Made by a program: the position numbers and the translations under genes. Shown in pieces: positions 25,825 through 27,807 of a stretch of DNA of 43,618 bases (its first letter is position 1; every line of letters starts with the position of its first letter). The DNA comes from Candidatus Woesebacteria bacterium (GTDB lineage Bacteria; Patescibacteriota; Microgenomatia; Woykebacterales; 2-01-FULL-43-14): assembly GCA_020060105.1 (NCBI GenBank), contig JAGVAV010000022.1, forward strand, positions 1-43,618, in the 5' to 3' direction. Below the pieces are notes generated by a model. The model saw only the letters and a list, made by a program, of their open reading frames with translations. It was not told the DNA's origin and ran no database searches.

Positions 25825-26835
25825 TCACTTCTTTCTAAAGTCAGCCAAACTTTGTAGTCCCATCGCCTCTTTGGCTAAATCCAATGTTTTTTGTGCTTCC
25901 TGACGTGCCCTCTCAGAACCATCTAAAATTATCTTTTCCACCAAATCGGGTGTTTCCTCGAACTTCCCCCTTCTTGTTCGAATAGGGTTAAGAAAGTTTT
26001 CTAACGCTTCTATGAGCCTCTCTTTAACCTCCACATCCCCAACTTTACCTTTCCGATAACGTTCCTTTAAGTCTTTTACTTCCTCCTCATTTTTATTAAA
26101 CGCTTCATGGTAGATAAAGACAGGGTTTCCTTCGACATGTCCTGGGTCCGTTGAACGGAGACGGGTTGGATCAGTATACATCCTCATTACTTTTTCCCTT
26201 ACTTCCTTTGGGGCGTCACTAAGGTAGATTGCGTTATCTAAGCTTTTGCTCATTTTCGCTTTCCCGTCAATTCCTGGCAGGGTTGGAATTTCTCCAATCA
26301 GCGCCTCGGGAAGAGGAAATACCTCCTTGTAAAGGCTGTTAAAGCGCATCGCCACCTCTCGAGTTAATTCCACATGAGAGGCTTGGTCTTTGCCGACTGG
26401 AACAAGATTTGCCCGAACCATCAAGATATCGGCCGCCTGAAGAACAGGATAGCTTAGCAGACCCAAAGAAGCCGTTTCAATTTTTAAATCCCCCATTACT
26501 TCCTTTAAGGTTGGTACTCTTTGTAAGCGCGGAACGCTAACTAGCATGCTAAAGATTGTAAAGAGTTCCGTCACTTGAGGGACTAAAGATTGTAGGTAAA
26601 TTACACATTTTCTAGGATCTATGCCCACGCTGAGATAGTCAAGCACTAAATCACGAATGTTGGGCTTAACTTGCTTCAAATCCTGATACTTTGTCGTCAG
26701 CATGTGAAGATCAGCAATAATGAAAAAACAATCAAACTCCTCTTGCAATCTGACCCGATTCTTCAGCGTTCCGACATAGTGGCCCAGATGAAGTTTCCCC
26801 GTCGGCCGATCTCCAGTTAAAATTCGTTTCTTCAT
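25825..26835 (-). CDS. trpS: Tryptophanyl-tRNA synthetase
   Basis: TGDRPTGKLHLGHYVGTL (HIGH-like) and KMSKSLDNAIYLSD (KMSKS); AGGAGGG SD. Confidence 0.96.
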   Translation of the reverse strand: MKKRILTGDRPTGKLHLGHYVGTLKNRVRLQEEFDCFFIIADLHMLTTKYQDLKQVKPNIRDLVLDYLSVGIDPRKCVIYLQSLVPQVTELFTIFSMLVSVPRLQRVPTLKEVMGDLKIETASLGLLSYPVLQAADILMVRANLVPVGKDQASHVELTREVAMRFNSLYKEVFPLPEALIGEIPTLPGIDGKAKMSKSLDNAIYLSDAPKEVREKVMRMYTDPTRLRSTDPGHVEGNPVFIYHEAFNKNEEEVKDLKERYRKGKVGDVEVKERLIEALENFLNPIRTRRGKFEETPDLVEKIILDGSERARQEAQKTLDLAKEAMGLQSLADFRKK

Positions 26836-26884
26836 AAACCCTCCTAAAGGTTATCTTAATTTAAGATTATACGCTAATAAATAG

Positions 26885-26918
26885 GGCAGGAGAAGTTGTT
26901 CTCATGTTCTCCTGCCCC
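26885..26918 (-). terminator. Terminator-like hairpin between small ORFs and trpS
   Basis: 11-bp perfect stem GGGCAGGAGAA...TTCTCCTGCCC, 12-nt loop, followed on minus strand by TATTTATTA. Confidence 0.65.
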
Positions 26919-26942
26919 CACCGGCTTTGTCCTGACCAGATC

Positions 26943-27122
26943 TTAAGAATGTTCTTCTGAATTTACCCCCGAATACGGTTCATCCTCCACAATCCTCTCC
27001 TGCTCCTTAACTGTTCTTGATTGATCTCTGCTTCCCTCACTCTCATTTTTCCTCCTCCTCCCTTGTTTATTCAGTAGACCAAATCTCTTCTCCAATTCGT
27101 CTCGGTCCGGGCCCCAGGTCAT
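26943..27122 (-). CDS. 59-aa ORF downstream of Trp T-box
   Basis: MTWGPDRDELEKRFGLLNKQGRRRKNESEGSRDQSRTVKEQERIVEDEPYSGVNSEEHS; strong SD AGGAGGAGGAG just before ATG; Trp is codon 3; not in ORF track. Confidence 0.55.
   Translation of the reverse strand: MTWGPDRDELEKRFGLLNKQGRRRKNESEGSRDQSRTVKEQERIVEDEPYSGVNSEEHS
26963..27046 (-). CDS. 27-aa ORF overlapping the 59-aa ORF in another frame
   Basis: MRVREAEINQEQLRSRRGLWRMNRIRG; SD GGAGGAGGAGG before ATG; one Trp codon. Confidence 0.35.
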   Translation of the reverse strand: MRVREAEINQEQLRSRRGLWRMNRIRG

Positions 27123-27144
27123 CTCCTCCTCCTACTTGTAAATG

Positions 27145-27431
27145 AAAAACCTCGTCTGTGTCTATCCAGGCCTAACCTGAATAAACAAGGACGAGGTTTC
27201 ACTCGTGTTGCCACCTTGCTTTCGTTTTGAACAAAAAACGCCCGACTTATAGACGGACGCTGACATCGACGCTCAAAACGCTCCTTAAACTGACTCCGAT
27301 ATCCGACATCAGCTGACCTTTTGATTACGGAAGGTTTCCGAAGAAGACTACTTTCTCCATTTTGGAGATGATTCACCTTCTCAGCTCGCTGGGCCCATTC
27401 TCCCAGCTCAAATGCTTTTAAAATATTTAAT
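27145..27431 (-). promoter_or_regulatory. T-box riboswitch, probably tRNA-Trp responsive
   Basis: Antiterminator CAAGG[TGGCAACA]CGAG..CTCGTCCTTG; bulge UGGC complements a GCCA 3' end (discriminator G, as in bacterial tRNA-Trp); competing terminator AACCTCGTC...GACGAGGTTTTT; apical-type AGCGAGCTGAGAAGGTGAATCATCTC; candidate UGG specifier in AAAATGGAGA; trpS downstream. Confidence 0.85.
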
Positions 27432-27438
27432 TAAGTCC

Positions 27439-27467
27439 TTTATATCACACTTAAGTCTGCCTGTCAA
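27439..27467 (-). promoter_or_regulatory. Promoter of the T-box transcript
   Basis: TTGACA-17-TATAAA on minus strand. Confidence 0.85.
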
Positions 27468-27477
27468 ACTCTCTACA

Positions 27478-27807
27478 CTAACGCACTCTTGTTCCGGGGA
27501 GAACCTCGGAAAGAACAGTTAGGCAAACCGGCTTTTCCGAAGTATCCGCGCATAGCAGCATCCCCTGAGACTCCAGGCCCATTATTTTCCGCGGCTCTAG
27601 ATTGGCCACAATGATGACGCTTTGGCCAACCAGCTCTTCTGCCGCATAAGAAACGGCTAAGCCAGCTAAGATTTGTCTTCTTTCTTCACCTAAGTCAATC
27701 TCCAAACGCAGTAGTTTTTCGGAACCTGCCACTCCTTCGGCCCGTAAGACTTTCCCAACTCTTAAATCCACTTTTTGAAACTGTTCAAAAGAGATTTTCT
27801 CTAACAT
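27478..27807 (-). CDS. Stand-alone tRNA-binding domain protein (MetRS C-terminal/Trbp111-like)
   Basis: FQKVDLRVGKVLRAEGVAGSEKLLRLEIDLGEERRQILAGL...VIIVANLEPRKIMGLESQGMLLCA. Confidence 0.9.
   Translation of the reverse strand: MLEKISFEQFQKVDLRVGKVLRAEGVAGSEKLLRLEIDLGEERRQILAGLAVSYAAEELVGQSVIIVANLEPRKIMGLESQGMLLCADTSEKPVCLTVLSEVLPGTRVR

Follow-up and report, generated by a model that had tools for sequence, protein, structure and literature searches.

A tryptophan T-box with an ultrashort Stem I and a nested Stem III hairpin precedes trpS in a Candidatus Woesebacteria genome

The elbow-binding module of the distal Stem I of T-box riboswitches is formed by AGAGA and UGxRA T-loops. In Bacillus subtilis, the anti-TRAP (rtpA/yczA) operon combines a Trp T-box with a Trp-rich leader peptide (rtpLP), whose run of Trp codons abuts the regulated gene; anti-TRAP itself is a Cys-rich zinc protein. 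T-boxes that control transcription are described as needing, in general, a long Stem I that carries the elbow module (PMC7583486, section 6.2), whose grip on the tRNA elbow is required since polymerase leaves such elements little time (PMC7583486). An ultrashort Stem I is instead typical of translational T-boxes (PMC7583486), of which an ileS element has been studied for the specifier and apical loop of its Stem I (PMC10651847). TBDB mentions class I matches with truncated Stem I (PMC7778990), so an ultrashort transcriptional shape is not wholly unseen. Our literature search, limited in extent, found no paper on T-boxes in Patescibacteria.

The locus described here lies in a window (the whole stretch of DNA analysed, 43,618 nt) that constitutes contig C13 of a 1.09 Mb genome in 40 contigs. 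All of its elements are on the minus strand, in the order 109-aa ORF, promoter, T-box, 59-aa ORF with an overlapping 27-aa ORF, hairpin, and trpS. The 109-aa ORF, which by eye encodes a tRNA-binding domain, ends at 27478, upstream of the promoter of the T-box transcript (27439..27467; TTGACA at 27467-27462, a 17-nt spacer, and TATAAA at 27444-27439). The regulated gene (25825..26835) is assigned to trpS, tryptophan--tRNA ligase, by a TIGR00233 match of 326 bits against a cut-off of 177. The nearest relative among the genome collections compared is a Patescibacteria MAG of a sister genus (G002, record JAMCZT010000033.1), whose trpS is 79% identical and whose order of T-box, 59-codon ORF, hairpin, and trpS is the same, with a promoter, TTGACT-17-TATAAA, in the equivalent position. 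A search for further relatives returned this sister record and distant trpS genes only, and no T-box was found upstream of trpS in the order-level relatives G003-G009; the full arrangement is common to the two genera only.

The T-box before trpS (27184..27421) is real, and its anatomy is overwhelmingly more than chance. A covariance search with an E-value threshold matched RF00230 across the full model (positions 1-219 of 219) with 57 bits and E 1.1e-11; the curated gathering score of this family is 93 bits, and a default Rfam scan at that threshold therefore reports no match at the trpS leader. The leader folds with a z of -5.2 relative to shuffles. A T-box also precedes trpS in the sister genus (RF00230, 47.5 bits), and between the two loci pairs have changed on both sides in Stem I (one), Stem II (two), and helix A2 of the antiterminator (two). 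The conserved elements of class I transcriptional T-boxes are present—Stem II, the Stem IIA/B pseudoknot, Stem III, and the UGGN bulge—as are the antiterminator/terminator switch and an aminoacyl-tRNA synthetase as target. That these hairpins were assembled by chance and constitute no T-box is scarcely credible. The score below the gathering threshold would fit such an accident, but an E-value of 1e-11, a matching tRNA-Trp discriminator, and the correct downstream gene do not, and the conservation of the element in the sister genus, with compensatory changes, already contradicts it.

The differences from class I lie in Stem I, in a U6 hairpin nested in Stem III, and in the low RF00230 score. 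Stem I (27388..27407) is one 6-bp hairpin, GCUGGG-AGAAUGGG-CCCAGC, whose apical loop holds the specifier and whose base has conserved flanks (GC AUUUGA ... GAGC). Its extent follows from the RF00230 alignment, in which six Stem I positions are filled where the model expects 72, and from folding, and a C-G pair is replaced by U-A in the sister genus. The elbow-binding module that marks the long Stem I of canonical class I is absent, with no AGAGA in the first 110 nt of the T-box. An ultrashort Stem I that lacks this module is a likeness to the translational class II ileS T-boxes of Actinobacteria (PMC7583486). In contrast to those, the trpS element has a terminator with a U-tract (U5) and no sequestrator of the ribosome-binding site, the trpS start lying 309 nt further on, and its counterparts in this group serve many amino acids (Trp, Ile, Asp, Val, Pro, Arg, Gly, and others). 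The published view of the elbow module (PMC7583486) counts against an ultrashort transcriptional T-box at trpS.

The T-box is Trp-specific. The specifier UGG (27395..27397), followed by G, is kept in four Trp T-boxes of the class: those before trpS in this genome and the sister genus, with Stem I loops AGAAUGGG and AGUAUGGG, and two before trpE, in G176 (AAGGAUGGG) and G064 (AUGGUUGGG). The antiterminator bulge UGGC fits G73 of the only tRNA-Trp found in the source genome (contig C24, ending GGGCCT-G-CCA), and in G064 and G176, too, a tRNA-Trp with G73 before CCA accompanies a UGGC bulge. The bulge of the sister genus is UGGU; its tRNA-Trp was searched for in its sequence and not found. The two trpE T-boxes (L054 in G064:C4; L170 in G176:C6) resemble the trpS element in their ultrashort Stem I, whose apical loop carries UGG, in a hairpin and U-run within Stem III, and in the UGGC bulge, but their gene, confirmed by family in G176, begins about 40 nt after the T-box match with no small ORF between. 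In both genomes trpS follows some 7 kb downstream, and Trp synthesis in these Patescibacteria appears, as read from sequence, to be under T-box control.

The antiterminator (27186..27218), delimited by the RF00230 alignment, comprises helices A1 (CAAGG/CCUUG) and A2 (ACGAG/CUCGU) and the bulge UGGCAAC (27213-27207), of which UGGC fits G73-CCA. The terminator (27145..27199; -32.2 kcal/mol, z -9.5) is followed by U5. Its 5' arm consists of the 3' strands of A2 and A1, and by this shared strand (27195-27186), as well as by folding, the two structures are mutually exclusive. Sequence, covariation, and the tRNA match establish the parts, and as a member of the T-box family the element very probably acts as a transcriptional Trp riboswitch of ultrashort-Stem-I type that controls trpS. 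Uncharged tRNA-Trp would pair at two sites, through its anticodon CCA with UGG in the apical loop of Stem I and through its GCCA end with the UGGC bulge, stabilising the antiterminator and letting RNA polymerase read into trpS; with charged tRNA the bulge would not be engaged, the terminator at 27199-27145 would form, and transcription would stop. A sequence-only reading of this DNA had proposed much of this: the promoter, a Trp T-box controlling trpS, the antiterminator/terminator pair, and the fit of the bulge to G73 all agree with the present results. The RF00230 search and leader folding that it recommended both bear it out, the former under the gathering score, and the specifier, for which it had accepted UGG only, is UGG. 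It overlooked two features, the extreme shortness of Stem I and the U6 hairpin within Stem III.

A survey of 119 readable T-box loci of this Patescibacteria class shows that the shape is common there. An ultrashort Stem I, recognized by a simple sequence pattern, occurs at 34 of the 119 loci (pattern errors are likely among them, as L089, L151, and L163 look wrong), compared with none of 31 in Clostridia and one of 12 in Chloroflexota. The loop codons match the downstream genes: AUC with ileS (four), GAC with aspartate--tRNA ligase (aspS) and PEP carboxylase (ppc), CCC or CCU with proS, CCU with proB, GUC with valS (two), GGC with glyS, CGC with argH, and UGG with trpE and trpS; the families were confirmed in one example each for aspS, ileS, ppc, proS, argH, valS, proB, glyS, and trpE, and the remaining genes were assigned by eye. 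T-runs of at least five follow 108 of the 119 T-boxes, which argues that T-boxes of this class act by termination. At L085 (G001:C28), the T-box has CCU in the loop of a short Stem I, and the ProB-like kinase encoded after it has a predicted N-terminus, MSGPYDYWWWWDARPKELL, with four consecutive Trp.

Stem III (27223..27280; -22.2 kcal/mol, z -4.6) carries an insertion at its tip, within which a terminator-like hairpin followed by U6 is nested (27233..27260; -12.1 kcal/mol, z -4.6). At the equivalent place the sister genus has a different stem, again with U6 (-12.4 kcal/mol, z -3.7). The nested hairpin may be a pause site or a leaky, partial terminator, which polymerase would meet before the antiterminator decision. 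Counted by a fixed rule (a hairpin with U5 or more), such Stem III hairpins occur in 52 of the 119 class T-boxes where shuffles predict 2.1, and in the controls in 1/31 from Clostridia and 0/12 from Chloroflexota. A Tyr-like specifier is present in 38 of the 52; most of the hairpins thus belong to related Tyr T-boxes, are not independent events, and are in large part explained by common descent. The idea that the hairpin compensates for an ultrashort Stem I was rejected, as it occurs in 7 of 33 ultrashort elements versus 45 of 86 others, mostly Tyr. The T-box before pheS in the source genome (L001, G000:C34:19080-19364, minus strand) also has a Stem III hairpin with U6. A T-box leader from Chloroflexota (L171, G375:C56) has a tRNA-Ala(GGC) gene embedded in its Stem III region (1671-1744); the gene downstream of this leader encodes, by eye, an aminoacyl-tRNA synthetase.

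The more unusual content of the locus is this combination of an ultrashort transcriptional T-box with a nested Stem III hairpin. Tentatively, and with the balance still somewhat against it, Patescibacteria may possess a separate branch of transcriptional T-boxes, in which a minimal Stem I decodes tRNA without elbow contact and the aromatic members add a Stem III pause or terminator so that polymerase would pass two checkpoints in succession, and to which trpS would add a translated spacer ORF. Ultrashort T-boxes with terminators offer minimal natural systems for studying decoding speed without elbow contact, and they raise the question of whether the Stem III hairpin and its U-run buy time by pausing. 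Patescibacteria are often regarded as poorly regulated; the presence of T-boxes in 191 of 374 genomes sampled, about half, suggests that they sense amino-acid starvation through tRNA.

The region between the T-box and trpS is less readily interpreted. Both ORFs that the sequence-only reading had placed there, of 59 and 27 codons, exist and have strong Shine-Dalgarno (SD) sites. The 59-codon ORF (26943..27122; SD AGGAGGAGGAG) is possibly translated and is the longest SD-led ORF in its T-box-trpS gap. An SD-led ORF of the same length fills the equivalent slot in the sister genus, and both are longer than expected by chance, shuffles reaching 59 codons in 0.95% of cases for the own gap (p 0.0095) and 0.55% for the sister ORF (p 0.0055). 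Both also start near W-G. The shared slot, together with the Trp-rich sister ORF, is what stands of the second, small-ORF layer of control inferred in the earlier reading; the frames, for whose conservation that reading had proposed a check, are not conserved. The ORF bodies align no better than shuffles (p 0.12), and the whole gap aligns above shuffles (z 4.0) because its ends are conserved. In codon usage, neither the 59-aa ORF (LLR -9.6) nor the sister ORF nor the 27-aa ORF (LLR -10.5, below shuffles) rises above background, and no small ORF has a Pfam match. A conserved frame with a constrained protein is therefore not what the comparison of the 59-codon ORFs yields. Apart from its SD, no evidence supports the 27-aa ORF (26963..27046), which has no counterpart in the sister genus. 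Two further candidates were rejected: the derivation of the pair from a single ancestral ORF by frameshift or decay, for which no significant alignment was found, and anti-TRAP or another known protein, for which there was no Pfam match.

It is possible, though we would not put it at even chances, that the 59-codon ORF encodes a genuine small orphan protein, which the T-box would regulate together with trpS. Where more than about 340 nt separate a T-box of the class from its gene, an SD-led small ORF usually occupies the gap, and in 12 of 26 such gaps it is longer than chance (p <0.05; Fisher p 5e-7); this makes a co-expressed small ORF credible. Two SD-led small ORFs, of 40 and 67 aa, precede pheS after the T-box of the source genome, and Cys-rich proteins of 71-98 aa (C-x8-C ... 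C-x11-C like), alike by eye, follow Tyr T-boxes at L169 (G171:C22), L126 (G203:C41), and L121 (G104:C16). The sister ORF product is also Cys-rich, with the pattern C-x8-C-x4-C-x7-C. However, the own product lacks Cys and is of low complexity, it has no homologue in 187 relatives, and the sister product has two marginal matches only among the relatives searched; the background codon usage and lack of a Pfam match likewise weigh against a gene.

Some 50-56 nt upstream of trpS in both genera lies a second hairpin. In the window it has 12 bp (26883..26918; -23 kcal/mol, z -4.5; none of 200 shuffles as good) and a tail, UAUUUAUU, that is U-rich and interrupted, with no clean U-tract; in the sister genus (-17.7 kcal/mol, z -4.5) there is no U-tract. 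It is thus conserved in position, a weak terminator at best, and a hairpin rather than a proven terminator. The earlier description of an 11-bp terminator-like hairpin was correct as to a stem of 11-12 bp; its terminator-like character is not borne out by the weak U-tract. That reading had further proposed two-layer control, with tRNA-Trp charging first and translation of the small ORFs second, and had named unconserved small-ORF frames beside conserved hairpins as evidence to the contrary. The comparison with the sister genus gives that outcome in part, and the two-layer model is not supported.

In its most specific form, a T-box followed by a Trp-codon leader peptide, on which a stalled ribosome would block the second hairpin as in the anti-TRAP operon, this model is improbable. 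A Trp T-box followed by a small ORF is indeed common to both systems, the SD-led 59-codon slot is shared by the two genera, both ORFs starting near W-G, and the sister product contains five Trp in 59 residues (p 2.5e-4 by amino-acid use, 0.011 by base composition). But the own ORF has a single Trp, the UGG at codon 3, about 200 nt upstream of the hairpin; the frames are not conserved, the sister hairpin lacks a U-tract, and we found no antiterminator that could compete with the second hairpin. Further, in contrast to rtpLP/rtpA, the regulated gene is trpS, no run of Trp codons abuts it (the stop codon lies 107 nt before trpS), and the own product lacks an anti-TRAP-like Cys pattern; that it is no anti-TRAP homologue, as the sequence-only reading held, is consistent with the absence of Cys and of a Pfam match. 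An upstream GCAGGAGA repeat could pair with the 3' arm of the second hairpin; attenuation by ribosomes through this repeat was rejected, since such pairing is far weaker than the local 12-bp hairpin, and no such repeat was found in the sister genus. The trpS of G003, in the same order, has no T-box (L010, trpS starting at 1501); there an SD-led 29-aa ORF, MEKRPYSHGRASWGPHSYGSAPWALHCNR, with two Trp precedes hairpins, an arrangement that would favour a leader-peptide reading and is a possible ribosome-mediated attenuator in its own right.

On balance, the 59-codon ORF is most likely peculiar to its lineage, a small ORF or a translated spacer that is expressed together with trpS and does not sense Trp a second time. 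The last hairpin probably serves to insulate the trpS messenger or to stabilise it, and trpS may also have a basal promoter 3' of that hairpin. A TATAAT at 26862..26867 is a candidate -10 box; TATAAT or TATACT also lies no more than about 30 nt from the start codon in other trpS genes of the order and class. It may be, although we consider it rather unlikely, that trpS relies on such a promoter of its own, that the T-box only adds read-through during Trp starvation, and that the ORFs are by-products of a purine-rich spacer. The ORF region is 71% purine and the 27-aa ORF is unsupported, as this would predict; yet a -35 box for the TATAAT was looked for and not found, the TATA boxes of the two genera do not align, and ORFs of this length are unlikely by chance in both.

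Elsewhere among the genomes compared, some T-boxes are immediately followed by a tRNA gene for their own amino acid (L121, G104:C16; L117, G132:C35; L041, G070:C19; L100, G216:C4; L144, G023:C9). In four of these, all Tyr T-boxes, the gene is tRNA-Tyr(GTA); in the other it is tRNA-Phe(GAA), after which come an 82-aa ORF and pheS. Were a T-box to drive expression of the very tRNA that it senses, the result would be positive feedback.
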